From NCBI RefSeq assembly GCF_000373785.1, contig NZ_KB892378.1, positions 326,406 to 390,405 of the forward strand: a DNA stretch of 64,000 nt. The letters run 5' to 3'. Shown here piece after piece: positions 7,756-52,452 of this stretch; the first letter of the stretch is position 1; the number at the start of each line of letters is the position of its first letter. Made by a program: the position numbers and the translations under genes. The stretch comes from Erysipelothrix tonsillarum DSM 14972 (GTDB lineage Bacteria; Bacillota_I; Bacilli_A; Erysipelotrichales; Erysipelotrichaceae). The notes beneath the pieces are model-generated. The model was given only the letters and a program-made list of their open reading frames with translations, had not been told where the DNA came from and made no database searches.

Positions 7756-8475
7756 TTAGAATTTCATGGAGATTGCTGCATCAAGCGCAATTTTCATCAT
7801 ATTAGTGAATGATAATTGACGTTCTTCAGCAGATGTTACTTCTTGTGTTACAAATGAATCTGAAATTGTAAGTACACAAGCCGCATGTTTATTTAATTTT
7901 TTAGCGTTTGCAAAGAGTGCAAAGGATTCCATTTCAACACACGTTACACCATGGTTCTTTGCCAGTTCCTGCCATGTAACACCGGAATCGCGGTAGAATA
8001 CATCACTTGAATGAATTCGACCTTCTTGCATTGGAATGCCTAATTTTGTTGCTGAAGCGCGTAATTGTTCATTTAAGATTTTACTTGGTTCTAAGACATC
8101 TTCTTCGTAACCAAATCCAACTTTCGCAAATGATGATTCACTGTATGCACTATCTGAAAGAATTACATCGTAGACATTGAGTCCTTCAACATAGGATCCC
8201 GCAGAACCGATACGGATAATTGCTTCAACATCAAATTGTGTATAAAGTTCATATGAGTAAATCCCAATACTTGGTTGACCCATTCCAGAACCCATAACCG
8301 AAACTTCGACGCCGTTGTATGTTCCAGTATATCCAAACATATTACGAACATCGTTAAATTGTTTAACATCTTCTAGAAATGTTTCTGCAATAAATTTTGC
8401 GCGAAGTGGATCTCCAGGCATAAGAACAACTTTAGCAATTTGTCCCTTTTCAGCATTAATGTGTGGTGTAGCCAT
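7756..8475 (-). CDS. deoD: Purine nucleoside phosphorylase, DeoD type
   Basis: 239 residues, the same length as E. coli DeoD. It catalyses phosphorolysis of purine (deoxy)nucleosides to base plus (deoxy)ribose 1-phosphate in the cytoplasm. Visible family motifs are the phosphate-site VLMPGDPLRAKFIA near the N-terminus, IIRIGSAGSY, VEMESFALF and the LTISDS segment with the catalytic Asp. The start at 8475 (MATPHINAEKG) is chosen because GGGAGGAA precedes it and it matches the family N-terminus; an upstream extension to 8553 is unlikely. It is monocistronic, with terminators on both sides. It complements the nucleoside hydrolase and ribokinase at 13.5-15.4 kb. Confidence 0.95.
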   Translation of the reverse strand: MATPHINAEKGQIAKVVLMPGDPLRAKFIAETFLEDVKQFNDVRNMFGYTGTYNGVEVSVMGSGMGQPSIGIYSYELYTQFDVEAIIRIGSAGSYVEGLNVYDVILSDSAYSESSFAKVGFGYEEDVLEPSKILNEQLRASATKLGIPMQEGRIHSSDVFYRDSGVTWQELAKNHGVTCVEMESFALFANAKKLNKHAACVLTISDSFVTQEVTSAEERQLSFTNMMKIALDAAISMKF

Positions 8476-8555
8476 AAATATAAATTCCTCCCATTTATTT
8501 AATTCAATTATACCATAGCCACGATAGAGATTCATTACCTTTGGTGTAAACATAT

Positions 8556-8580
8556 AAAAAGCTCTGACGAATCAGAGCTT
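8556..8580 (-). terminator. Terminator of BCCT-OCD operon
   Basis: Minus-strand stem AAGCTCTGA / TCAGAGCTT followed by TTTTTATATG, seven bp beyond the end of the cyclodeaminase-like gene. Confidence 0.85.
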
Positions 8581-8587
8581 ATGGTTA

Positions 8588-9547
8588 CTATTGATTGAAG
8601 TGTTCGTAAACGGCTGTCGCAATCGCAATATCGAGCACACCCGATCCGTTGCTTTCATAAAGCGTGATTTGGTCGTCATTTTCACGTCCCACTGCTTTAC
8701 CGATTAATACATCACCCACCGAACCGGTGACTTTACTTGTATCAATTAGACCTTTTTCAAGAGGAATCAAGATGTCCCCCGCAACCTTCAACATTTCATC
8801 AACATGTTCAGTCACAAGTTTATCGGCCATGACAACCATGTTTTCATCAATCTCTTGCATAAATGGAGTAAACGATCCAATTGCATTGACGTGAGTTCCT
8901 TTTCGAATTACAGATGAATCAAACACGGGTTTGGTTGATGGTGTACATGTACACAAAATATCACAATCATGAGCCAGTTTATTGGCATCATTGTAAGCAA
9001 CAATCTTGTAATCACGATTTTTCGCTTTTTCAAGTCGTGCAATGAAGTTATGCATACGAGCTTCATCAAGGTCATATACATAGACTTCTTGAAGATCGCG
9101 CACTTCTTGGATTGCAAGGATTTGGGTAAAGGCTTGAATTCCAGTTCCAATCACTCCTAATTTATTAGCATCTTGGCGTGCCATAACTTTAGTTGCAACT
9201 CCGGCTGCCCCACCTGTTTTAATTGATGTAAGATAGTTCGCACCGACAATTCCTAAAAGCTCACCCGAATCTGCGGAATACAGACTGATTTGCGAGATAA
9301 CCGTAGGAATGTTCTTGGCAACATTAGATGGAAAACTGGCAGCATACTTAATGCCAAAGAATGGTTTATTCTTCATGCAGGCAGGCAACCAAATGCATGA
9401 ACTTTCATTACCACGAACTGGTAATGTGATACGATCAACATAAAAGATTTCATCATGAGAACATGCTTTGAATGCTTCTTCAATAATGCCTAAGGCTTTG
9501 GGCATATCCAAATACGATTCAACTTCTTTTTCTTCTACAAATAACAT
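8588..9547 (-). CDS. Ornithine cyclodeaminase/mu-crystallin family protein
   Basis: 319 residues, typical for the family. N-terminal dimerisation strands surround a Rossmann NAD(P)-binding domain starting near residue 125 with KLGVIGTGIQAFTQILAI and the acidic YVYDLDEAR. Members include ornithine cyclodeaminase, alanine dehydrogenase and imino-acid reductases (pyrroline-2-carboxylate), so the substrate cannot be set from sequence. The ATG at 9547 overlaps the BCCT stop codon by one base (TAATG), with GGAGGAAG upstream, so translation is probably coupled to the transporter. The pair may import and convert a cyclic or quaternary amino compound; that is inference from context. Confidence 0.85.
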   Translation of the reverse strand: MLFVEEKEVESYLDMPKALGIIEEAFKACSHDEIFYVDRITLPVRGNESSCIWLPACMKNKPFFGIKYAASFPSNVAKNIPTVISQISLYSADSGELLGIVGANYLTSIKTGGAAGVATKVMARQDANKLGVIGTGIQAFTQILAIQEVRDLQEVYVYDLDEARMHNFIARLEKAKNRDYKIVAYNDANKLAHDCDILCTCTPSTKPVFDSSVIRKGTHVNAIGSFTPFMQEIDENMVVMADKLVTEHVDEMLKVAGDILIPLEKGLIDTSKVTGSVGDVLIGKAVGRENDDQITLYESNGSGVLDIAIATAVYEHFNQ

Positions 9548-14455: not shown

Positions 14456-15374
14456 CATTTCCTCCTTGATTCATAAAATCAACTAACATTTCAAATGTAG
14501 GAAGTGCTTCCTGAGCACCTTGTTTTGTACAAGCGAGCGCTCCCGCTGCACTTGCATACGTCAATGCTTTTTCAATTCGCCAATTTTTACTTAAACCAAA
14601 TAATAGCGTTCCAATATATGTATCACCAGCACCGGTTGTATCCACAACATCTACTTTAAATGAACGAATACGAATACTATCGCTTTGACTTACGCAAACA
14701 CTGCCTTCACCACCGAGTGTAAACACAACACAACCGACACCACGTTTGAAGAGAATTGCTGCAGCCTTTTCACAATCATCTGCATTCTTAGGGAATATTC
14801 CCGATAAGATTTCGCTCTCTGATTGATTAACCACAAGATAATCAATCAATGGATAGAAATCATCATTCATGACCACAGCGGGTGCAGGATTTACAACCGT
14901 TGTCATTCCTAAAGCTTTCGCACTTTTTAAACCTTCAAAGACGGCATATAAGGGTACCTCAAATTGTGTTAAGAAGAAATCTTCTTCATTTCCTTTTAAG
15001 GCTTCATGAATCCGAGGAACACTAATATTTGCATTTGCTCCTTGATTAATAATAATCCGATTGTCATTATCCGTTTTAATAATAACTGCAGTGCCTGTAT
15101 GCTCATCCTCACTAATTAAAACATTTGATGTATCAATCCCGAAGTTATTGAGTGCATTTAATGCAAGTTGTCCATGATAATCACGACCAACACTTCCAAT
15201 TAAATAGGTTGGAGCGCCAAGTTTCGCACATGCAGCAGCTTGATTACCACCTTTTCCACCAATTGCTTCAAAATAGTCATAACCCGCAATGGTTTCACCT
15301 TGCTGCGGAATACGATTTGCTGAAATCATTAAATCAGCATTAACACTTCCCAATACATAAACTTTACTACTCAT
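14448..15374 (-). CDS. rbsK: Ribokinase (PfkB family)
   Basis: 308 residues from ATG 15374, the normal length. PfkB motifs: GSVNADLM near the N-terminus, GGKGGNQAAACAKLGA for the sugar site, and DTTGAGDTYIGTLLFGLSKN with the catalytic Asp. It converts D-ribose to ribose 5-phosphate. The start at 15374 aligns with the family; a start at 15392 is also possible. The chosen ATG overlaps the GNAT stop codon (ATGAGTAG). Neighbouring nucleoside hydrolase supplies ribose, making a short salvage pathway into the pentose phosphate route. Confidence 0.92.
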   Translation of the reverse strand: MSSKVYVLGSVNADLMISANRIPQQGETIAGYDYFEAIGGKGGNQAAACAKLGAPTYLIGSVGRDYHGQLALNALNNFGIDTSNVLISEDEHTGTAVIIKTDNDNRIIINQGANANISVPRIHEALKGNEEDFFLTQFEVPLYAVFEGLKSAKALGMTTVVNPAPAVVMNDDFYPLIDYLVVNQSESEILSGIFPKNADDCEKAAAILFKRGVGCVVFTLGGEGSVCVSQSDSIRIRSFKVDVVDTTGAGDTYIGTLLFGLSKNWRIEKALTYASAAGALACTKQGAQEALPTFEMLVDFMNQGGNDE

Positions 15375-15789
15375 AGAATAATACCATCCCACTTCCTAAA
15401 CCTTCAGTAGGTCTTTCAATAAAACCATACTTAGCGTAAAACTTTTCAACACCTGGTGTAGCCATCAGTCCCACATAAGCACCTTTACAAGCGTGCTTGG
15501 ATAAGTAGTTGAAGAAAGCCTTCATAATCAATTCGCCACAACCTTGGTGCTGATAATCCGGATGTACAATAACATCCTTGAGAAAGAATACAATTCTTCC
15601 ATCACCGACGACACGTGCAATAGCAACCGCTCGGTCACCATCGTATACCACAACATCGTATAAATCATGATCGAGAGCAATCTTTATATCCTCTAAATCG
15701 TATTCTTTAAAGTGACATACTTCATGCATTTCTCGATAAAGCGCCGGAGTAAGCACATTTTCTACCAATATATAATCTTTAGTCTTCAT
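15367..15789 (-). CDS. GNAT family N-acetyltransferase
   Basis: 140 residues, a single GNAT domain. The acetyl-CoA pyrophosphate loop is visible as VIVHPDYQHQGCGELIMKAF near residues 93-112, and the C-terminal FYAKYGFIERPTEGLGSGM is typical. Acceptor substrate unknown. It is first in the operon with ribokinase, nucleoside hydrolase and the DcuC-like transporter, an unusual companion for nucleoside salvage. The Shine-Dalgarno AAGGAGG lies 14 bases before the ATG and an operator-like palindrome sits between them, so repressor binding and translation initiation signals overlap. Confidence 0.85.
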   Translation of the reverse strand: MKTKDYILVENVLTPALYREMHEVCHFKEYDLEDIKIALDHDLYDVVVYDGDRAVAIARVVGDGRIVFFLKDVIVHPDYQHQGCGELIMKAFFNYLSKHACKGAYVGLMATPGVEKFYAKYGFIERPTEGLGSGMVLFYE

Positions 15790-43086: not shown

Positions 43087-43561
43087 GGTTTTAATGCGAT
43101 TGCTTTAACCGATTGGTTTTTTCTTCAATGTATTACACCATAAATATACGGTGAAAACGGTTAACACTTTGGGAGATGTTATAAACTTTAGGTTATTTGT
43201 ATCAAATGACTTGGTTTTTACCCCATGAAAGTTTGTTTTAAACCCGTTAATCCATACTGTGAGCGAAAGTTTCTGCTATGAATAATCAATCTTAAACAAT
43301 GTGTTTTCGTTATCGGATGTTTCGTTTTCCGCTTGCTGTGCTAATGATTCTGTGCTCACCACATCGATAAATGTATAACAAGACTACTCTAAAAAAACAT
43401 ATTCTCCCTAGGCAAATCTATTATTACCACCACATTTACAAAAAAAACAACACTCTGATGTTGTTTTTTTCGTTTTCATAAGACATCCTTTAAAACAATA
43501 AGGTCAAGAACACCGTATCTAGAAATATATATATATATATTTATACATCGAAATGAGCTAT
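43087..43561. other. Gene-free interval, 475 bp
   Basis: No protein frame longer than background, no tRNA and no clear riboswitch. It contains a weak hairpin AACC-GATT-GGTT plus T run after the S51 gene (43107-43122), a strong terminator (43441-43470), and an alternating AT tract (about 43527-43542). It may hold a decayed gene or an unrecognised small RNA; nothing more can be supported. Confidence 0.6.
43441..43470 (-). terminator. Terminator of the dga-like operon
   Basis: CAACA / TGTTG with flanking A and T runs (stem 43448-43463), so it works on either strand. It is the first terminator after dgaF on the minus strand, about 100 bp downstream. Confidence 0.75.
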
Positions 43562-44305
43562 TTAAAAATTTTTAAGCAATTTTCGATTGATAGCCATGAT
43601 TGTCTTAACATCTTCAACCTTAGTTTTTCCAGTATCCGCATCGATAATTGATGAATAGATATGGGGAATAACATGTTGAACACCTGCATCCAAAATAATG
43701 GTCATGATTTCTTCATAATTTTCAAGATCAATACCACCTGTTGGTTCTAAGCAAAGATTGTTTTGAGCACATGCTTTTGCTACGGCTTTAAGTTCATCTT
43801 TAACTTGCAAGCCTTTCATTGGGAAAAATTTCAGTGCATTGCCACCCATATCTTTAACCATCGCAATTGCAGTATCGATGGAGACGATAGCCGGCTCATC
43901 ACAATGACTGCTTGTTGGACCGGTTGAAATTGCTAGATAGCCCGGTTTTCCGGTTGGTGATACCAACGCATTGATATGCGAATCATGATTATCGCCGACT
44001 TTAGCACGTGTATATGCCACGGCCGTAAAGACTTGATTAATATGGTTTGCTTTAACATGCTCACTGATGTCACCTACGGCTTTCCATTGATTTGGGTTTC
44101 CAGCACCCAAGCCAATAGAAAGATTGTTATCAAGCGCTGCAGCATAACGATTCATATCCGTTACGCCTTCTTCAACCGTTGGATAATTAATGGAGAGAAC
44201 CCCAACAACTACATGGCCTTCTGCTGCTTCATAAATTTCTTTTGCATTTTCTAAATCATGCGCCAGAACATTGATACAAATTCGATCATTTAAATATGGA
44301 ATCAT
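43562..44305 (-). CDS. dgaF: 2-dehydro-3-deoxy-phosphogluconate aldolase, DgaF/EF_0839 family
   Basis: 247 residues. Family landmarks include the N-terminal MIPYLNDRICINVLAHDLEN, VGVLSINYPTVEEGV and GNALKFFPMKGL (with the Schiff-base-region Lys), then CLEPTGGIDLENY and HVIPHIYSSIIDADTGKT. The Salmonella homologue DgaF cleaves 2-keto-3-deoxygluconate 6-phosphate to pyruvate and glyceraldehyde 3-phosphate. It starts one base after the dgaE stop codon and is the last gene of the operon. Confidence 0.88.
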   Translation of the reverse strand: MIPYLNDRICINVLAHDLENAKEIYEAAEGHVVVGVLSINYPTVEEGVTDMNRYAAALDNNLSIGLGAGNPNQWKAVGDISEHVKANHINQVFTAVAYTRAKVGDNHDSHINALVSPTGKPGYLAISTGPTSSHCDEPAIVSIDTAIAMVKDMGGNALKFFPMKGLQVKDELKAVAKACAQNNLCLEPTGGIDLENYEEIMTIILDAGVQHVIPHIYSSIIDADTGKTKVEDVKTIMAINRKLLKNF

Positions 44306-44306
44306 C

Positions 44307-45410
44307 TTATACCTCTTTCATAATTTCTTTAAAACGTTGTACAATGACTTCTAAATCATTGGATACAAGCGGACGGGTATCCAAGGTAATATAACCCTCG
44401 TTAATACGATGACCACGACAATGTATTGAAGGATTTCCTTCCTTAAGATGTTGGTCAACCACAAAGGCATCACCGCTGGTAATTTTAACTTGTGCACGAT
44501 AGATCTCACGTCCAGCTTCATCTTGTACTTCTTGAACCTCAAGACCTTTTATTTGATTTAGATTTTGTACTAAATAAGCAACATCTTGATGGTTTTTTGT
44601 TACTATGGCTGCTTCATCACGTGTGTTATATATCTCAAGCGCTTTAAGTAGTCCCATAATACCTTCTTTACCAATTTTCATGGGACGACCAATTCCTTGA
44701 TATTGAAGGTGAGCATTGTGAATCAAATCTTTACGACCTGTAATAAATCCTGAAGTTGTTGCTTCAAAAGCTTTTGCGCCTGAATAAATTACAAGGTCAG
44801 CTCCCATTGCAATATAACGGCGCAAATCTTCTTCTGCAGCCGCATCTACAATAATAGGAAGATGATGCTTATGAGCGAGTTTAATCATGGCATCAAGGGC
44901 AATCATACCTTTTTGAACCGTGTGATGGCTCTTAACGTACAACATCCCGGCAGTATTTTCATTAATCTCTGCTTCCATGTCTGCTACCGTTACAGCATTA
45001 ACAAGGCCCGCTTCAATCGGAACCCCACCACCTAAACGTACCATCGTGGCAATCGGTGCTCCAAAGCCTACGATGTGACCCTTAGGGATAATAATTTCAT
45101 TTTTTAATCCTGAAGAATTTGGAAGTGAACGAATGTGTTTGATATTATCTTTTGCGATAAGAGCAGCAACACTAATCGCAATACCTGCCGAAGCAGAAGA
45201 AGTTACTAAACTTGCTTCCGCACCGGTGTATTGTGAAATAATTTCGCCCGATCTGATAAATAAATCATCAATCACCACATAGGATTGACCGCCTTCGACG
45301 GCAGCCTTTCCTACTTCATCACTGAGTGCTGAAACACCAAGTGCCGTCATACGACCACTCGCGTTTATAACACGTTTAAGACCAATCTTCTCATAAATAT
45401 TTTTTTTCAT
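44307..45410 (-). CDS. dgaE: D-glucosaminate-6-phosphate ammonia-lyase, DgaE family (SelA-like, PLP)
   Basis: 367 residues, type I fold PLP enzyme of the SelA-related (TIGR01437) family. Visible are RVINASGRMTALGVSALSDE at the N-terminus, SLVTSSASAGIAISVAALIA (cofactor ring segment), PIIVDAAAEEDLRRYIAMGA (Asp to pyridine N) and VIYSGAKAFEATTSGFITGR with the PLP Lys. The Salmonella enzyme deaminates D-glucosaminate 6-phosphate to 2-keto-3-deoxygluconate 6-phosphate. It starts three bases after the DUF4310 stop codon. With dgaF it forms the catabolic end of the operon. Confidence 0.88.
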   Translation of the reverse strand: MKKNIYEKIGLKRVINASGRMTALGVSALSDEVGKAAVEGGQSYVVIDDLFIRSGEIISQYTGAEASLVTSSASAGIAISVAALIAKDNIKHIRSLPNSSGLKNEIIIPKGHIVGFGAPIATMVRLGGGVPIEAGLVNAVTVADMEAEINENTAGMLYVKSHHTVQKGMIALDAMIKLAHKHHLPIIVDAAAEEDLRRYIAMGADLVIYSGAKAFEATTSGFITGRKDLIHNAHLQYQGIGRPMKIGKEGIMGLLKALEIYNTRDEAAIVTKNHQDVAYLVQNLNQIKGLEVQEVQDEAGREIYRAQVKITSGDAFVVDQHLKEGNPSIHCRGHRINEGYITLDTRPLVSNDLEVIVQRFKEIMKEV

Positions 45411-45413
45411 ATC

Positions 45414-46085
45414 CTAAAGGAAAATAGCCCCGAAAATCATAGCACCAAGAATTGCTCCACCAGTGATTTCTTTATCCCATTTATAGAATAGTACTGAACC
45501 AACGATTGCTCCAATACCTGTCCATACATTGAATTGTCCAGCTGCAATAACAATCATAGGTCCTAAGTAACGTCCGGCAGCATTTCCAGCTCCCATCATA
45601 ACTTCGGTACCACCTACTGCAACACCTTCTGGCATTGTTTTACGAACCGCCATAATGATTGCACCAATTACAAGCCCTAAAACCGCACCAGTGATTAATG
45701 CAAATCCAAAGTTATTGAATGGCAAATCGAAATTCATGGAAAGGAATAATGCTGGTAAACCAATACCAACTCCTGTCATTAATGATCCACCGATATCTAA
45801 AACCCCAACAAGAGGTCCTTCAAGAATACGAGCAATTAAGAATCCAGCTGCAAATCCAGCCGCAGCAGTATAATCACCACCGTCAAGTCCATCACGAAGC
45901 ATCTGTACAATCGCTAGATCATTGAATGCTCCAGTTCCAAGTTTAATATACATAAAGGTACCTGCGAAAATAGCAGCGGCTGCACCCATAATTAAGAGTA
46001 TAAATGCAGAATCCTTCATCAAGAAATCATTTAATTTGTCTACGAATGTTTTATTATTTTTAACTTCAATTGTTGTTTTTGTCAT
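45414..46085 (-). CDS. DUF4310 family membrane protein
   Basis: 223 residues with about five or six hydrophobic segments rich in Gly and Ala (FAAGFLIARILEGPLVGVLD; GGSLMTGVGIGLPALFLSMN; GGTEVMMGAGNAAGRYLGPM). Homologues are found together with DUF4311, DUF4312 and SFCGS proteins beside DgaE/DgaF-type genes, as in the Enterococcus EF_0830s cluster. No biochemical function is known to me. Position suggests it is a membrane subunit of an uptake system. AGGAGGAG precedes the ATG; 11 bp follows DUF4311. Confidence 0.85.
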   Translation of the reverse strand: MTKTTIEVKNNKTFVDKLNDFLMKDSAFILLIMGAAAAIFAGTFMYIKLGTGAFNDLAIVQMLRDGLDGGDYTAAAGFAAGFLIARILEGPLVGVLDIGGSLMTGVGIGLPALFLSMNFDLPFNNFGFALITGAVLGLVIGAIIMAVRKTMPEGVAVGGTEVMMGAGNAAGRYLGPMIVIAAGQFNVWTGIGAIVGSVLFYKWDKEITGGAILGAMIFGAIFL

Positions 46086-46096
46086 ATAATCTCCTC

Positions 46097-46816
46097 CTAG
46101 AATCCAAGTTTCGCAAAGAATCCACGGAAGTATGCAATCGCAACAAACATTACAACTACAATAGCAATCAATACACGAACAACATTGTTCTTGTATCCAT
46201 TATTTTCCGCTGACTTACCAATTAAGATCCCTAATACGATTCCTGGCACAGCATTTCCTGAAACGACTGTTGAAACACCACCAAGTACTGTTCCCCATAA
46301 TCCAGTAGTTTTCCCAGCGTCCATAGCTGCTAACCAGAAAATTGCAGGCATAACTGGATTTAGTAACCATGATGTGGCAGGTGATAGAATTTCACTTGCA
46401 ATAACTGATAATTTTTCAGGAATTAAAGATGCCGCTGTATTTAAGAATGTAACTACAACAGCGCCGATTGCTGATCCAGCTAAGAACATTTTACCTGGGT
46501 TATGAAGTGTATCTTTTTCATCACCGCCACGAGCCATTAATGCAGCCGCAGACCAGTTAGGGACAATACGGTGGAATACATCTCCGGTCAATGCACCACT
46601 AGCTAATGCTGAAGCAGCTGCATTAAAGAAGAATCCAAGTCCGAATGAGAAGTGTGAGATTGGATCTTCACTACATGCATTAAGCTCACCAAGTGTTCTA
46701 AATGCTCCCATACTTTGAATTTCTGGAGCATGAAACATACGTGCAGCACCAGCAGCGATACATCCACCACCGATAGCACCAATAATAATTGAGTAAATAA
46801 TAATTTCTATATTCAT
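46097..46816 (-). CDS. DUF4311 family membrane protein
   Basis: 239 residues, strongly hydrophobic with about six helices and Gly-rich turns (IIGAIGGGCIAAGAARMFHA; LASGALTGDVFHRIVPNWSA; GVSTVVSGNAVPGIVLGIL). Member of the DUF4310-4312/SFCGS cluster. Likely the second integral subunit. Its ATG directly follows the DUF4312 stop codon (TAGATG), and its Shine-Dalgarno AAGGAG lies inside DUF4312. Confidence 0.85.
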   Translation of the reverse strand: MNIEIIIYSIIIGAIGGGCIAAGAARMFHAPEIQSMGAFRTLGELNACSEDPISHFSFGLGFFFNAAASALASGALTGDVFHRIVPNWSAAALMARGGDEKDTLHNPGKMFLAGSAIGAVVVTFLNTAASLIPEKLSVIASEILSPATSWLLNPVMPAIFWLAAMDAGKTTGLWGTVLGGVSTVVSGNAVPGIVLGILIGKSAENNGYKNNVVRVLIAIVVVMFVAIAYFRGFFAKLGF

Positions 46817-47113
46817 CTATTCTTTCTCCTTTTGTATTTCTAAATATTTTACCTTCAGTACAACACGAGCTTTTACGATATATTTAACATCATCTTTTTT
46901 AGGCAACAATAATTTATTTTTTGTTTCCTTTTGAACATCATCGAAATATACCTCTTGTGTTTCCATTTGAATAATTGGATAATCTAATTCTTTGTATATT
47001 TGTTTATGGATTTGTTTAAAAATTGAAGCAGAGGCATCATTCATCGTCTTACCATCTCCGGTAACAACCAGTTCAAGTATAGTTTCTCGAAGCAGTTGTG
47101 TTCCTTTACTCAT
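46817..47113 (-). CDS. DUF4312 family small protein
   Basis: 98 residues, soluble by appearance, with a Lys/Glu-rich C-terminal strand pattern (KYIVKARVVLKVKYLEIQKE). The start at 47113 (MSKGTQLLRETILELV) overlaps the SFCGS stop by eight bases (ATGAGTAA), which gives a compact family-sized protein; the longer frame back to 47167 only reads SFCGS DNA in another frame. Probably a cytoplasmic subunit. Confidence 0.8.
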   Translation of the reverse strand: MSKGTQLLRETILELVVTGDGKTMNDASASIFKQIHKQIYKELDYPIIQMETQEVYFDDVQKETKNKLLLPKKDDVKYIVKARVVLKVKYLEIQKEKE

Positions 47114-47477
47114 TGCTATGCAGTTTTTGATAGGCGAGAACAACCTTTTCCCCAAGTTCCTCAACATCCATAAATCCTAATCCAATTACTTTATGACCTT
47201 GTTCAATTGCTGTGACTGCAGCTTGCACAGAACGCAAGTGCGATGTTGCTTTATATCCGTATTTCGTTTGGGCTGTGATTGCTCCAGCACCACCTGATCC
47301 ACAGAAACTAATTCCGATGTCTGCATTATTTTCATGCATTACATCACCAAGTTTCATATCTGCTGCCATGCCTGGAATTACAATTGCTTTACCACCTGCC
47401 TTTTCGATTCCTCGTGCTACAGCTTGACCACCACCCATACGGTGTCCGATTACAACTACAATTTGTTTTTCACTCAT
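47106..47477 (-). CDS. Glycine-rich SFCGS family protein
   Basis: 123 residues. An alternating beta-alpha protein with the naming motif GISFCGSGGAGAITAQTKYG. A His directly after the first strand (VVVIGHRMGGGQAVA) is placed like the phosphorylated His of mannose-class PTS EIIA domains, and the SFCGS Cys sits after another strand; the comparison is mine. Function unknown. The ATG overlaps the PRD-protein stop by four bases (ATGA). Confidence 0.85.
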   Translation of the reverse strand: MSEKQIVVVIGHRMGGGQAVARGIEKAGGKAIVIPGMAADMKLGDVMHENNADIGISFCGSGGAGAITAQTKYGYKATSHLRSVQAAVTAIEQGHKVIGLGFMDVEELGEKVVLAYQKLHSNE

Positions 47478-47806
47478 ATTCTGTCTCCTTTACTGTTTAT
47501 ATTTGTTTGAATATGTGTTGCGATTAAAATTAATTCCATGGTTGATATTTCTTGTTTAAATATCTTAAACAAAGGTTCGCCAATTTCTTTAGAGATATTA
47601 AGACTTACCTCCTCTAACTCATCCAGTACTGCGCTGTATTGATCTGCTTCCATCACAATGACTTCATCGTTCATTAAACGATCAATAAGACTACCCATGT
47701 GAGCAAAAAATGTTTCTTCAGCTACGGCATCCGTATACTGGATATTTTTAGAATCTAAATAATGCCTAATTTCTTCTAAATATGCTTGTTTATCAAAGTT
47801 TTTCAT
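47474..47806 (-). CDS. Stand-alone PRD domain protein
   Basis: 110 residues, nearly all one PRD domain. Both His positions used for PTS phosphorylation appear, in FFAHMGSLIDRL and ILIATHIQTN. With no DNA-binding domain it may be a regulatory or transport-associated subunit. The ATG at 47806 overlaps the amidohydrolase gene by 14 bp. Matches the small PRD proteins found in EF_0829-type clusters. Confidence 0.82.
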   Translation of the reverse strand: MKNFDKQAYLEEIRHYLDSKNIQYTDAVAEETFFAHMGSLIDRLMNDEVIVMEADQYSAVLDELEEVSLNISKEIGEPLFKIFKQEISTMELILIATHIQTNINSKGDRI

Positions 47807-48932
47807 TATCAATTATTTCACTACCTTCTACACGGCTAATTACCGTTTTTACGGATACAAAATTTTGGGTTAAGTCGAGCGTATCACCCATTGAATCAAC
47901 TACTGCTTCATCAACCTCTTCCAGTTTACTAATACTTAAGTCACCGAAATATCCAACCTTTAAATGTCCTAAACGATCTAAACCAAAATGATCTGCAGGT
48001 TTTGAAGTTGCATTTTCGAGACAGTCTTCCAAGGTCTCACCAATATTGATTAACTTTGTAATCACAGCATGTTGACTATAAACTGGTCCTTCATAGTTTT
48101 CGCAGTGCAAATCTGTTGAGACAAAATCGGGATAAAATCCGAGTGACTTCGCCCGCTTGAAGGTTTTAAAACTAAAACTTGCGGAACCGTGACCAACATC
48201 AAAGAGTACCCCACGTTGTCTTGCCTTTACCGCTTCTTCGATGATTTCCTTACTTTCATTTAAGATTCCACCTTTTTTTCCATGGAAGGCATGGGTCAAT
48301 ACGTCCTTTTTCTTCATTAAATTTAAGACATCTTGCAAATATGGGGGAAAGTTTCCAGTATGAATCATGATTGGTTTATCCAATTCATGAGCAAGATCTG
48401 TTGCGATTTTAATTGGAATGATTTCAAGGGATCCGCAAACGCTAGAACTGGCACGTGCTTTAAGTCCCACAATTTCCGTTGGGTATTTACGAACCATTTC
48501 TCGCACCATATCCTCATCAATTTTTTCTAAATCGTCCAACTCTCTTAATTCTACGAGCCCTTTTTTCGAGATGTTCAGCAGCGAATATACTTTAGTTTTG
48601 TGCTTTTTAATAATTTCTTCATTAAAAATTTCAAAGTTCTCGGGACCTGCACTACCGGCATCAAGGATTGTTGTGGTTCCCCTGGAAACACCGATGATAT
48701 CCGCATCAATTCCATTTACCGCTGTGCCTGTAAAACAGTGCGTATGGATATCAATCAATCCCGGTGAAATAATACAGCCTTGAGCATCAATCGATTCAAT
48801 GTCTTCGTGCTCAATGGAATCCTCAATGGCAGTGATTAGTCCATTTTCAATTAAAATATCTTTTTTATCACCATGATATCCATCAGCTTGAGATATCAGT
48901 AAACCATTCTTAACTAATAGTTTATTCATCAT
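47793..48932 (-). CDS. Amidohydrolase/deacetylase family protein (EF_0837-like)
   Basis: 379 residues, metal-dependent amidohydrolase fold. Metal motif SPGLIDIHTHCFTG near residue 57, a Lys in IVGLKARASSSVCG, then PIMIHTGNFPP, ALTHAFHGK-type and VSTDLHCENYEGP ligand segments. Homologues accompany DgaE-type genes; the substrate is unproven, plausibly an N-acyl amino-sugar acid. ATG ATG at 48932/48929 after AAGGAGAAA overlaps the regulator's stop codon by 11 bp. Confidence 0.85.
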   Translation of the reverse strand: MMNKLLVKNGLLISQADGYHGDKKDILIENGLITAIEDSIEHEDIESIDAQGCIISPGLIDIHTHCFTGTAVNGIDADIIGVSRGTTTILDAGSAGPENFEIFNEEIIKKHKTKVYSLLNISKKGLVELRELDDLEKIDEDMVREMVRKYPTEIVGLKARASSSVCGSLEIIPIKIATDLAHELDKPIMIHTGNFPPYLQDVLNLMKKKDVLTHAFHGKKGGILNESKEIIEEAVKARQRGVLFDVGHGSASFSFKTFKRAKSLGFYPDFVSTDLHCENYEGPVYSQHAVITKLINIGETLEDCLENATSKPADHFGLDRLGHLKVGYFGDLSISKLEEVDEAVVDSMGDTLDLTQNFVSVKTVISRVEGSEIIDNEKL

Positions 48933-50802
48933 TTTTTCTCCTTAATATGTATTGATAGAATGCCAATCGTTCTTCATTTGAAATGGAAATATACAGGGAA
49001 TCTTCGATGGTCGAAAAGAATGCGTTTAACGTCTTAACGAGGTCTGGATGGGATAATTCGATGTATTCATACATCGAATTCACCGCAAATTCATCTTCAA
49101 TTTCTTTCGTTTCAAACCAACGTGGAATCGCCATTACTAAGTGTATTGTAAGACCTAAGATTGAATCGTAACTCATCGGGTAGTGATCTGAAATTTCTGT
49201 AGTCAATTCAATCAATGACAGTGTTACTTCACTGATAATCTGCGAATACATTTGAATTAACTCGCTTTTCTCTCGTGGTAATTTATCTTTGATATCATCA
49301 AAATAATTCGTCATTGAGTAGCGCTTTAAGACTTTGGCACTCATATCATCATTTATGAAATGATGAATCTTGGCGATATCATTGGAAGAGAGAATATTTG
49401 AAATTTGTAATACTGGATAAATGGATTGTTCAATCGGGATGGTGGAAATGACAAAGTCAATATCCTCCAGTAACCTCAGACTCTCTAATTGGTAAAATGA
49501 CATTTGCGCCACGACTTCAAGTTGAGGGAAAACGTGCTTAATGCGTGTTACCAATAAAGTCGATAGTCCGCGTCCAGTTGAACATACGACGATGACTTTC
49601 TTTTGCCCATGAGTTTCAATTCTGTTTTTATACAAATAAATTGCGATATAACTTACTTCAGTTTCAGATAAAGTCCGTTGAAAGTGTTTTTCAAAAATCA
49701 TGCTCAACGTTTGGGCTAACTCAAAGTATTGTTTATATTTATTTTTAATCTCATCCAAAATCATCTTTTCTTCTTCATTGGAATGAATCGCTTTGCAATT
49801 AATTAATGTTTGAAAATGAAGAATTAAATCCTCATGAAGGTGTTCAAGGTTGAAGTATGATGCTTGTTCTTCAAGATACATCATCATTTCACCTAGCATC
49901 ATATTAATTTTGGGTTCATCGATGACTTGATCGTTGATAAAGACATCACTGACTCGAAGCAATTCCAACATACTATCCATTTCAAAATCACAATCCGTAT
50001 CTTCTTGACTTTGAAGGATCCCGCTCGCATATTCTAAAAGACTTTCACCTTTATGACCGTTGTATCGCCGCGGTGTTGTTTCTAATGTTAGAAAACGAGC
50101 AAGACGATAATGTCGAACGATTAAATAACATAATATGTTAAAGAATTTCTCGGAATTTAGCCACACTTGGTATTTCGCATTAAAGCGTTTATAGTTTTTG
50201 GAAATAATCGTTAATCGATTGATACTAATACAAGCACGGATTGGAACAGGTAAGTGGTGATACCAGTCTTCCGGGGTATTTCTATTTTTAATAAAAGGTA
50301 CGATAATGGCCGCTACCAAACATCTTAAGTCAAATTCGGACCCTTCGAGGTAGTACCCTTTACAGCGTTTGTTCTTAATCTTAAATGTATTTCGGTAATA
50401 AGCTTCAAAGCCCGAAAGGTAATCTGCAACACTCCGCTCGGAAATAAAGAGCGTGCTTGTTATTTCCTCAACACTTAAGTACCGACTCGTACTAAAGAGC
50501 AACAACAGTTCTTCATAGATCTGTGTCTCAATCTGTACGGGTTTAATACCTGATAATTCACCTTTCAGTTCCAAAAACTTAGCCTCAGCGAGAACGCGTT
50601 GATTAATTGGAATGTAAAATCCATTCGTAGGTGCAAAGCGTAGTTCTATATCAAACTCGCTTAGAATTGTTCGGAGGTTTGAAATGTCATAACGGATCGT
50701 TCGTTCCGACATTTTCGTAATCTCTAACAACTCTTCCATCGTTACGAATTGATTACTGGATAGAATTAAATCGTATATTTCAATTTGTCTTTGAGTAATC
50801 AT
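48922..50802 (-). CDS. BglG/MtlR-type PRD transcriptional regulator
   Basis: 626 residues. N-terminal HTH (FVTMEELLEITKMSERTIRY) and a second HTH_Mga-like domain to about 170, PRD domains about 180-395 (FEKHFQRTLSETEVSYIAIY), an EIIB-like domain with VIVVCSTGRGLSTLLVTRI near 402, and a further alpha-helical PRD-like region to the end. Such proteins are activators controlled by PTS phosphorylation. It is first gene of the operon it probably controls. The ATG lies 11 bases after GGAAG. Confidence 0.85.
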   Translation of the reverse strand: MITQRQIEIYDLILSSNQFVTMEELLEITKMSERTIRYDISNLRTILSEFDIELRFAPTNGFYIPINQRVLAEAKFLELKGELSGIKPVQIETQIYEELLLLFSTSRYLSVEEITSTLFISERSVADYLSGFEAYYRNTFKIKNKRCKGYYLEGSEFDLRCLVAAIIVPFIKNRNTPEDWYHHLPVPIRACISINRLTIISKNYKRFNAKYQVWLNSEKFFNILCYLIVRHYRLARFLTLETTPRRYNGHKGESLLEYASGILQSQEDTDCDFEMDSMLELLRVSDVFINDQVIDEPKINMMLGEMMMYLEEQASYFNLEHLHEDLILHFQTLINCKAIHSNEEEKMILDEIKNKYKQYFELAQTLSMIFEKHFQRTLSETEVSYIAIYLYKNRIETHGQKKVIVVCSTGRGLSTLLVTRIKHVFPQLEVVAQMSFYQLESLRLLEDIDFVISTIPIEQSIYPVLQISNILSSNDIAKIHHFINDDMSAKVLKRYSMTNYFDDIKDKLPREKSELIQMYSQIISEVTLSLIELTTEISDHYPMSYDSILGLTIHLVMAIPRWFETKEIEDEFAVNSMYEYIELSHPDLVKTLNAFFSTIEDSLYISISNEERLAFYQYILRRKNDE

Positions 50803-50865: not shown

Positions 50866-50895
50866 TCTTGCACTGTGATTTTTTTCACTGCAAGA
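50866..50895 (+). other. Strong hairpin in the leader of the HAD gene
   Basis: TCTTGCA, a two-base bulge, GTGA, a T-rich loop, then TCAC TGCAAGA. It lies 18 bases upstream of the HAD start codon and about 15 bp upstream of the divergent dga -35. It could be a leader RNA structure or a dyad operator for the PRD regulator. Confidence 0.4.
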
Positions 50896-50912
50896 ATAGA
50901 AATGGTGATACT

Positions 50913-51560
50913 ATGATAACTACAATCCTTTTTGATCTTGATAACACCTTAATTGATCGCCAGCACTCAATTCGGGAAACATTCAAAGAACTTATTCAGT
51001 TTGACCATGGTGTTTTTGATGCCACCATCCTTGATGATTTAATGCTTTGGGATCACTATGGGTATCATGATAAAGCCTATGTATTTGAACACTACACGCA
51101 AAAATACTCCACACATTTTGAAAACAAACAAGCGTTCCACAGCTTTATTGTTAACCATCAATTTCGTCATGTTACACTTTTTGAAGATACCGAGAGAACT
51201 TTACGGGAACTCGCCCAGCGCCATACCTTAGGCATTATCACAAATGGCAACAGCATCGGACAACGACGGAAGATGGACCAAGCACTTCATGGATTGCAAG
51301 ATCTCTTTGAGGTTGTTTTAGTATCTGGCGATCGTAATATTCATAAACCAGACCGTCGTATTTTTAAAGAAGCCCTGGATATCCTCGATAAAAGACCCGA
51401 AGAAGTGATGTATGTTGGTGATAACATTGAAGCCGATATTTATGGAAGCCGCAATGCAGGGTTAACGCCTGTTTGGATTAATCCTTATCAGTTTGAATCC
51501 TCTGTGGATGCAATGACAATTCATTCACTTTCCGAGTTAACGCTTCTGTTAGATAAATAA
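50913..51560 (+). CDS. HAD superfamily hydrolase (YjjG-like)
   Basis: 215 residues. Motif I TILFDLDNTLIDR, motif II TNGN, motif III Lys in HKPDRRIF and motif IV YVGDNIEADIYGSRNAG are all present, with a helical cap between. Such enzymes hydrolyse small phosphate esters; the substrate is unknown. The ATG at 50913 is chosen since it begins the core strand; the Shine-Dalgarno is weak (ATGGTGA). Confidence 0.87.
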   Translation: MITTILFDLDNTLIDRQHSIRETFKELIQFDHGVFDATILDDLMLWDHYGYHDKAYVFEHYTQKYSTHFENKQAFHSFIVNHQFRHVTLFEDTERTLRELAQRHTLGIITNGNSIGQRRKMDQALHGLQDLFEVVLVSGDRNIHKPDRRIFKEALDILDKRPEEVMYVGDNIEADIYGSRNAGLTPVWINPYQFESSVDAMTIHSLSELTLLLDK

Positions 51561-51586
51561 AGCGCTGTTTTTACAGCGCTTTTTGT
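51561..51586 (+). terminator. Terminator shared by HAD and aldolase genes
   Basis: AGCGCTGT / ACAGCGCT followed by TTTTTG. It contains the last codons of the convergent aldolase gene. Confidence 0.85.
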
Positions 51587-52452
51587 GTAGATTCAAACAG
51601 CTTCATATAATGCATCAGTTTTTTCTTATATCCGTGTCGACATGTAACATCTAAAAGTGAGTACACCGAACGTTTTTGGTTCTTAAATATCACATCGTTT
51701 TGAATATAATCTGGATCTGTTTCTGAAGTTAATACTTGACGCAAAGAATCCAACCAAGCAGTCCCCAAATCGGTGAATAGATTAATCTTCTGTACTCCAA
51801 TTTTCACAGCTCGATACAAGTTTTCATCACCTGTACTGGATCCTCCATGCAGTACTAAAGGAATATCAATCGCTTTGACAAGTTCTTCGAGTCGGTTGAA
51901 GTCTAAATACGGCTCCCCGGCATAAGTCCCGTGCGAAGTCCCTACAGCAACCGCAAGGCAATCAATATTCGTTGTGCTGACATATTCAATGGCTTGTGCT
52001 ACATCCGTAAGCCCTTCATCACGAGTGATTGCATACTCCTGTCCGACACCGACATGCCCTAGTTCCGCTTCAACACTGATTCCAGCAGCATGCGCTACGC
52101 GTACCACCTCTTGAACATCTTTAACATTTTTTTCAAATGATTCCGTTGATCGATCCATCATCACCGATGTGAATCCATTTTTAATGGATAACACACAATC
52201 CTCATAACGACTCCCATGATCAAGGTTTAAAGCAAAAATAACATCAGGATAGCGCTTTTCAAAAAAATCGACAATTGCGCTCATTGCTTCAATATCATGA
52301 ATTGCTCCAACATCTAAGATAATCGGTGCTTGCAACTCATGTGCTGCTTCAAAACAAGCTTGAATCGATTCAAAGTTAAAACAATTCGGTGCAGCAATTC
52401 CATATTTTCTTGCTTTCGCATCATTCAATAATTCGTGCATTGGTTTTCTCAT
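51571..52452 (-). CDS. Class II fructose/tagatose-bisphosphate aldolase family
   Basis: 293 residues. Zinc and catalytic segments are present: LNLDHGSRYEDC (Asp and His), EAELGHVGVGQE, GTSHGTYAG and LHGGSSTGDENL, with IQKINLFTDLGTA. The sequence resembles FbaA/KbaY/GatY enzymes cleaving ketose bisphosphates; the exact sugar cannot be resolved. ATG at 52452. Monocistronic and convergent to the HAD gene, so not part of the dga-like operon. Confidence 0.88.
   Translation of the reverse strand: MRKPMHELLNDAKARKYGIAAPNCFNFESIQACFEAAHELQAPIILDVGAIHDIEAMSAIVDFFEKRYPDVIFALNLDHGSRYEDCVLSIKNGFTSVMMDRSTESFEKNVKDVQEVVRVAHAAGISVEAELGHVGVGQEYAITRDEGLTDVAQAIEYVSTTNIDCLAVAVGTSHGTYAGEPYLDFNRLEELVKAIDIPLVLHGGSSTGDENLYRAVKIGVQKINLFTDLGTAWLDSLRQVLTSETDPDYIQNDVIFKNQKRSVYSLLDVTCRHGYKKKLMHYMKLFESTQKAL

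Follow-up and report, generated by a model that had tools for sequence, protein, structure and literature searches.

A five-gene cassette beside dgaE and dgaF in Erysipelothrix tonsillarum, a candidate importer coupled to the phosphotransferase system

Analysis of a 64-kb stretch of the genome of Erysipelothrix tonsillarum DSM 14972 (Bacillota, 1.93 Mb), referred to here as the window, showed a nine-gene operon on the minus strand at positions 43562-50802. Five consecutive genes of this operon (the cassette), coding for a stand-alone PRD protein, SFCGS, DUF4312, DUF4311 and DUF4310, stand between genes for a regulator and an amidohydrolase on one side and dgaE and dgaF on the other. Few bacterial uptake systems have been studied as well as the phosphotransferase system (PTS), whose permeases are grouped in a small number of superfamilies. 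The chances appear evenly balanced that the five-gene block is a PTS-coupled importer whose membrane part is without homology to the tested Enzyme II permeases, and the best reading of the data is a system that works like a PTS permease yet fails the homology tests for one. The nine genes had been listed in a preliminary description of this DNA, and all were present, each matching its named family (Pfam/NCBIfam/TIGRFAM), as follows:

48922..50802, minus strand: PRD-type transcriptional regulator, 626 aa (Pfam PRD, Mga/HTH_11, PTS_IIB)
47793..48932, minus strand: amidohydrolase/deacetylase of the EF_0837 family (AmH), 379 aa (NF006689, 377 bits, cut-off 371)
47474..47806, minus strand: stand-alone PRD protein, 110 aa, first part of the cassette (Pfam PRD)
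47106..47477, minus strand: SFCGS protein, 123 aa, predicted RpiB/LacAB fold (Pfam PF14272, TIGR03577)
46817..47113, minus strand: DUF4312 protein, 98 aa, putative small soluble subunit (PF14189, 28.4 bits, cut-off 27)
46097..46816, minus strand: DUF4311, putative membrane subunit, 239 aa (PF14188, 339 bits)
45414..46085, minus strand: DUF4310, putative membrane subunit, 223 aa (PF14187, 275 bits)
44307..45410, minus strand: dgaE-type pyridoxal phosphate ammonia lyase, 367 aa (TIGR01437, 449.9 bits, cut-off 385.3)
43562..44305, minus strand: dgaF, 2-keto-3-deoxy-6-phosphogluconate aldolase, 247 aa (NF047796, 373.7 bits, cut-off 300)

From the regulator to dgaF, and with the best start codons, the junctions were -11, -14, -4, -8, 0, +11, +3 and +1 bp. 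The mechanical open reading frame (ORF) of DUF4312 begins at 47167; the ATG at 47113 was chosen, giving 98 aa, the usual length of the family.

Conservation of the cassette

Scanning one genome for each species yielded 568 confirmed relatives of DUF4311, and the best 79 of these loci were retained; with plasmid and whole-genome loci added, the set mapped here came to 90 non-redundant loci (cited by L numbers). The same genes were found together again in these 90 loci, a grouping far beyond chance. SFCGS, DUF4312, DUF4311 and DUF4310 were together in all 90, and the stand-alone PRD preceded SFCGS in all 90 as well, 88 being found by a hidden Markov model (HMM) and the remaining two by reading. 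The unit, described earlier as a four-part system, therefore has five parts with the stand-alone PRD included. One of the two PRDs missed by the HMM was fused to the amidohydrolase (L024 of Acidaminobacter, 7779-9263), a hint that the two proteins may be physically close, and the other (L095) was readable in frame with both histidines. The order PRD-SFCGS-DUF4312-DUF4311-DUF4310 was held across loci of Bacillota, Pseudomonadota, Actinomycetota and Fusobacteriota. The other genes were found as follows: amidohydrolase in 86, DgaE in 83, DgaF in 83 and PRD regulator in 82 of the 90 loci, several of the misses being contig ends or mis-called ORFs.

Phosphorylation sites of PRDs are conserved histidines (compare PMC4987338). 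The sequence of the stand-alone PRD diverges quickly (mean column identity 30%), and its only near-invariant columns among 41 sequences were H, R, E and H; the protein of the window has both histidines (H36 and H98), and a solved relative is 3nuf_A (E 5.4e-23). No match of the Enzyme IIA (EIIA) class was obtained in Pfam for any of the nine proteins, which left the stand-alone PRD as the only histidine phospho-acceptor candidate in place of a known EIIA. In three Spiroplasma-like clusters the stand-alone PRD was kept with no PRD regulator present and with an RpiR-like regulator upstream, which argues that the protein works in the machine itself and not as the regulator's partner.

Neighbouring HPr and Enzyme I genes

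A co-directional HPr gene adjoined the operon in 18 of the 90 loci (six genera), against about one expected from random placement by our own estimate. Most of these genes lay at most 70 bp from the end gene of the operon or were joined to it through an Enzyme I (EI) gene, and EI stood beside the operon in 8/90 loci. The HPr gene of L015 was left out because it lies on the opposite strand; for the EI count, the lone HPr genes of L036 and L044 were left out and L087 was taken in. In Paenibacillus loci the HPr gene, often with an EI gene, was ahead of the regulator, while in Brevibacillus, Caproiciproducens, Mobilisporobacter and the 'Amazonia' genome it followed dgaF (11-23 bp in the measured cases). 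The HPr gene of Alkaliphilus was 870 bp away, Acidaminobacter had EI beside the cluster, and the Bartonella plasmid had an HPr-EI fusion there. Pfam confirmed the HPr/EI identity for the representatives tested. Of the cassette genomes or records, 51/53 had EI above the cut-off, compared with 138/195 sampled Bacillota (Fisher p 4e-5, uncorrected for relatedness). The adjacency of HPr and EI is the strongest new evidence for a PTS link, and it strengthens the case that the system is coupled to PTS phosphoryl transfer through dedicated HPr and EI.

A system that is regulated by the PTS and not driven by it was considered unlikely. The DUF4311/DUF4310 pair would then be a secondary or otherwise powered importer and a kinase encoded elsewhere would make the 6-phosphate, with SFCGS handling the cytoplasmic substrate and the stand-alone PRD doing no more than gating or sensing by way of HPr phosphorylation. 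PRDs are known as regulatory domains (PMC4987338), genes for PfkB-type sugar kinases stand beside some DgaE modules (L014, L192, L194 and L198), and no homology to EIIA, EIIB or EIIC was found in the cassette; on the other hand, a dedicated EI and HPr would be costly if for regulation alone, neither the cassette of the window nor most others come with a kinase gene, and the stand-alone PRD persists where the PRD regulator is absent.

Catabolic genes and alternative permeases

The metal-type ligands of the amidohydrolase (H63, H65, K158, H191, H214 and D274) were conserved at 98-99%, and H162, H163 and K213 of DgaE were conserved. DgaE acts on a 6-phosphate substrate (PMC9529869). The operon has no kinase gene, and the order of the enzymes suggests an N-acyl amino-sugar acid 6-phosphate as the starting compound, from which deacylation, deamination and cleavage would yield pyruvate and glyceraldehyde 3-phosphate. 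DgaE scored 431 bits against the cut-off of 600 for the D-glucosaminate-6-phosphate lyase equivalog NF047797, so the exact sugar acid is not assured. In the Klebsiella cluster (L012), a gene of the lactonase family (14504-15658) separates dgaF from the regulator, which also fits an aldonic acid.

DgaE was found in 14 of 392 genomes of a Bacillota sample, including all seven cassette genomes. Among the seven DgaE genomes without the cassette, five (L194-L198) had amidohydrolase-DgaE-DgaF adjoined by a MupG-type gene and by a PTS permease of the lactose class, and the other two (L192 and L193) had no transporter beside the module. The lactose-class modules share the catabolic genes with the window operon and have ordinary EIIC/EIIB, a permease expected to deliver a 6-phosphate, where the window operon has the cassette. 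In Salmonella, a mannose-class PTS permease feeds DgaE/DgaF (PMC4987338). Since the same module is served by ordinary PTS permeases elsewhere, the cassette would occupy the place of a 6-phosphate-delivering PTS permease. The earlier proposal that the set stands in for such a permease is thus supported both by the Bacillota sample (lactose class in 5/7) and by Salmonella (mannose class).

The absence of EIIA-EIID genes from the locus had also been noted, and it was upheld for the PTS families searched: no lactose-class EIIB and no mannose-class EIIC or EIID matched in the window outside the EIIB-like domain of the regulator. Elsewhere in the genome, five mannose-class EIIC/EIID pairs and several lactose-class EIIB were found. 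The five pairs are in favour of a different arrangement, in which the cassette serves export, sensing or a different substrate and DgaE/DgaF are fed by a mannose-class PTS from elsewhere in the genome. A few cassettes without dgaEF or AmH nearby (L035 and L036) and the two DgaE modules without a nearby transporter (L192 and L193) agree with this arrangement, which is nevertheless judged very improbable, as 7/7 cassette genomes of the Bacillota sample carry DgaE, and DgaE and DgaF each stand beside the cassette in 83/90 loci.

The Salmonella dgaABCDEF operon shares with the window operon the DgaE and DgaF chemistry, a PRD-type regulator and a PTS-linked logic (PMC4987338, PMC9529869). Its permease is a mannose-class EIIA-EIID set, of which no homologous parts were found in the window operon; the latter has an added amidohydrolase, and its regulator lacks a sigma-54 activator domain in Pfam.

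Two further observations concern modules without the cassette. In a sister species from the genus of the window (L192), amidohydrolase-DgaE-DgaF was followed by a PfkB-type kinase with no adjoining transporter, and a YhfT gene was found elsewhere (L164). The MupG-type proteins of L194-L198 are TIM-barrel proteins, and their company with lactose-class PTS permeases and amidohydrolase-DgaE-DgaF is suggestive of a glycoside of an N-acyl sugar acid as the substrate there.

Structure of the SFCGS protein

SFCGS had been counted as a membrane part; it is predicted instead to be a soluble protein of the RpiB fold. The AlphaFold2 model (pLDDT 93.3) had RpiB/LacAB as its top Foldseek matches (E from 2.4e-5) and gave VIA Z 12.4 with RpiB over 119 residues at 3.2 A. 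Sequence comparisons pointed the same way, with a weak Pfam match to LacAB_rpiB (E 0.01), four RpiB/LacAB entries among seven weak matches of the SFCGS profile in the PDB, and E 0.0035 in the profile-profile comparison with RpiB. Cys59 of SFCGS was invariant and aligned with the catalytic cysteine of RpiB. The catalytic histidine of E. coli RpiB (H99, mutated in entry 2vvr) aligned to a variable stretch, and the SFCGS alignment had no conserved histidine column. Without a conserved counterpart of this histidine, SFCGS is unlikely to run the RpiB isomerase reaction as such, and we infer a phosphate-binding or phospho-cysteine role. SFCGS thus shares the fold and the position of the catalytic cysteine with the RpiB/LacAB isomerases and differs from them in being shorter, in always adjoining membrane-protein genes and in lacking the conserved catalytic histidine.

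It is rather improbable that SFCGS is a real RpiB/LacAB isomerase or epimerase acting on the imported sugar phosphate, with a transporter made up of the membrane pair, DUF4312 and the PRD. The fold, at VIA Z 12.4, and the kept catalytic cysteine are what such an enzyme would have; against it, H99 of RpiB has no conserved counterpart in SFCGS, the AmH-DgaE-DgaF pathway needs no isomerisation, and DgaE modules with other permeases carry no SFCGS. As a candidate EIIB, SFCGS was rejected by sequence (E 0.25 for the PTS_IIB profile against 0.0035 for RpiB), and VIA Z with the EIIB-chitobiose structure was 6.6 against 12.4 for RpiB.

Membrane proteins and DUF4312

The DUF4311/DUF4310 pair probably forms a membrane complex. 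The preliminary description had called the four-part system distinct, and a distinction from the mannose class was borne out by sequence, as neither membrane protein had similarity to mannose-class EIIC or EIID: hhalign gave values of 0.015-0.21 over 10-45 columns only, and the positive control of the same test, EIIC against EIID, gave 3e-12. The possibility of a known transporter in disguise was rejected for DUF4311 after Pfam, a PDB sequence search and a fold search gave nothing, and for DUF4310 after Pfam, a PDB sequence search and profile comparison gave nothing. The AlphaFold2 model of DUF4311 was all-helical (pLDDT 86) and had no PDB match in Foldseek at E<=0.001, with a best VIA Z of 5.1, which is no proof of a new fold.

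DUF4310 and DUF4311 are probably remote paralogs by their profiles. A DUF4310 profile search retrieved DUF4311 proteins (best 1e-5), and the comparison of the two profiles, collinear over about 150 columns, gave E 0.0016 (144 columns) in one direction and 0.065 in the other. In the Spiroplasma-like loci L100, L101 and L102, DUF4310 has a charged, probably coiled-coil N-terminal extension of about 330 residues and DUF4311 has a C-terminal tail.

DUF4312 was small and variable, with no conserved histidine or cysteine in the family alignment. The family (46817-47113 in the window) matched Alba, an archaeal chromatin protein, weakly (E 0.019), perhaps through no more than a shared small alpha/beta fold.

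Putative mechanism

In the proposed mechanism, a phosphoryl group would travel by way of EI and HPr to a histidine in the stand-alone PRD, the EIIA-like part, and then on to the invariant cysteine of SFCGS, the EIIB-like part of RpiB fold. The DUF4311/DUF4310 pair with the small DUF4312 would form the membrane channel for an N-acylated 2-amino-sugar acid, delivered inside as the 6-phosphate. The amidohydrolase would strip the acyl group, and DgaE would eliminate ammonia to give 2-keto-3-deoxy-6-phosphogluconate, from which DgaF would produce pyruvate and glyceraldehyde 3-phosphate by cleavage. The operon would be governed by the PRD regulator, which would sense the phosphorylation state. The relay, the inward direction of transport and the substrate are all parts that we infer. 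Of the uncharacterised uptake system for an amino-sugar acid described earlier, the PTS-permease slot and the distinction from the mannose class were retained, and the number of parts and the location of SFCGS were not.

Several points weigh against a PTS-driven importer. To our knowledge, no PRD acts as an EIIA and no RpiB fold acts as an EIIB, and by profile, Foldseek and VIA alike SFCGS lies closer to sugar-phosphate isomerases than to EIIB proteins of any kind. Adjacent genes do not amount to phosphoryl transfer, and the HPr/EI neighbours, which are concentrated in Paenibacillus and Brevibacillus, could serve the PRD regulator alone; two cassette genomes, both metagenome-assembled, had no EI over the cut-off. 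With DgaE under the equivalog cut-off, the substrate may differ from D-glucosaminate-6-phosphate, and the five mannose-class PTSs of the genome could in principle supply it instead.

A more specific proposal is made tentatively, and with less than even confidence: the cassette may represent a new class of PTS permease, with a PRD as EIIA, an RpiB-fold EIIB carrying a phospho-cysteine and a paralogous channel pair of unseen fold, and with yhfY-yhfU-yhfT of E. coli as a second branch. If true, this would be a new class of phosphoryl-linked importer with unrelated membrane parts and with a PRD (a domain known so far for regulation) and an RpiB fold (known so far from isomerases) as relay parts, an unrecognised transport machine that hundreds of bacterial species possess and to which E. 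coli K-12 has partial relatives. Four conserved hypothetical families would gain roles open to testing, there would be a route into the unexplained yhf operon of E. coli K-12, and the deciding residues are the two PRD histidines and Cys59 of SFCGS.

Distribution and earlier records

The mapped loci spanned Bacillota, Pseudomonadota, Actinomycetota (Collinsella) and Fusobacteriota. Among near relatives of the genome of the window the cassette was sporadic (2/60 by DUF4310), and it was present in 1/13 searched genomes of the genus. DUF4311 was found in 7/392 genomes of the Bacillota sample, three of which, Spiroplasma-like, read TGA as tryptophan. One copy was carried on a 55-kb Bartonella plasmid. 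Brevibacillus daliensis (L046) has two cassettes in tandem; the genome of Dielma fastidiosa (L096/L019) contains three, and there DgaF is followed by another DgaE. In 16 loci (L017-L032 and others) the cassette adjoined a gene for a Cof-type HAD hydrolase (about 290 aa), always on the same strand.

The earlier description of the system as uncharacterised was right, although the cluster is already logged in NCBIfam/TIGRFAM as a conserved hypothetical set. TIGR03577, TIGR03579, TIGR03580, TIGR03581 and TIGR03583 bear the names of members of E. faecalis EF_0830-EF_0839 or Aeromonas AHA_3911-3917. The proteins of the window exceeded the cut-offs of TIGR03577, TIGR03579, TIGR03580 and TIGR03581, and matched TIGR03578 (DUF4312) and TIGR03583 (amidohydrolase) below the cut-off. 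The EF_0830-EF_0839/AHA_3911-3917 cluster (TIGR03577-TIGR03581, TIGR03583 and TIGR01437) has the same gene families and neighbours as the window operon, and its models carry hypothetical names only, without a mechanism; relative to the window operon, the E. faecalis cluster has MupG, a sugar kinase and a PTS IIC in addition. The same cluster appears in records of Klebsiella, Bartonella and E. faecalis under names such as 'DUF4311 domain-containing protein'. In the literature search, no paper was found on DUF4310-4312 or explaining the cluster. The gene set itself is not new; the five-part unit, the SFCGS fold, the HPr/EI adjacency, the replacement in the PTS slot, the dissimilarity of the membrane pair to mannose-class EIIC/EIID and the yhf relatives are.

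Related genes in Escherichia coli K-12

The profile matches identify yhfY and yhfU of E. coli K-12 as relatives of two cassette parts. In the yhf operon, YhfY is a stand-alone PRD that matched the PRD profile at E 1.2e-8, and YhfU (DUF2620) aligned over its full length with SFCGS (E 0.0012) with the cysteines matched. In yhfY-yhfU-yhfT, as in the cassette, a PRD and a small Cys-loop protein thus stand beside a membrane protein, YhfT. Among Bacillota YhfT loci, YhfU adjoined YhfT in 11/12 and a stand-alone PRD in 9/12. Eight aligned PRDs from YhfT loci kept both histidines; YhfY of K-12 lacks the second. The yhf operon differs from the cassette in having no DUF4312 and different enzymes, and YhfT is a single protein of 434 aa without detectable similarity to DUF4310/4311 (hhalign E 0.13 and 0.73, from 13 YhfT sequences only). 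YhfT as a DUF4311-DUF4310 fusion, a candidate from motif likeness by eye, was not supported by profile comparison; the DUF4311 profile built here had no match to YhfT. A control search gave a weak E. coli match to PF14188.

Other features of the locus

The PRD regulator contained a helix-turn-helix domain, PRDs, the EIIB-like domain and a C-terminal PRD-like stretch, and its H329 was conserved in 99% of 83 sequences. A Pfam search gave no sigma-54 activator domain in it. One feature was found downstream of dgaF:

about 43440..43470, minus strand: A/T-rich terminator-like poly-T hairpin after dgaF (direct sequence reading)

The hairpin, 3' of dgaF, reads AACAACA-tcagag-TGTTGTTTTTTTT; being A/T-rich, it was missed by the consensus terminator scan and was found by direct reading. 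The GC content (0.377 vs 0.375) gave no sign of recent transfer. Upstream of the operon, a ketose-bisphosphate aldolase-like gene lies on the same strand at 51571-52452, with a divergent HAD gene (50868-51560) in between.

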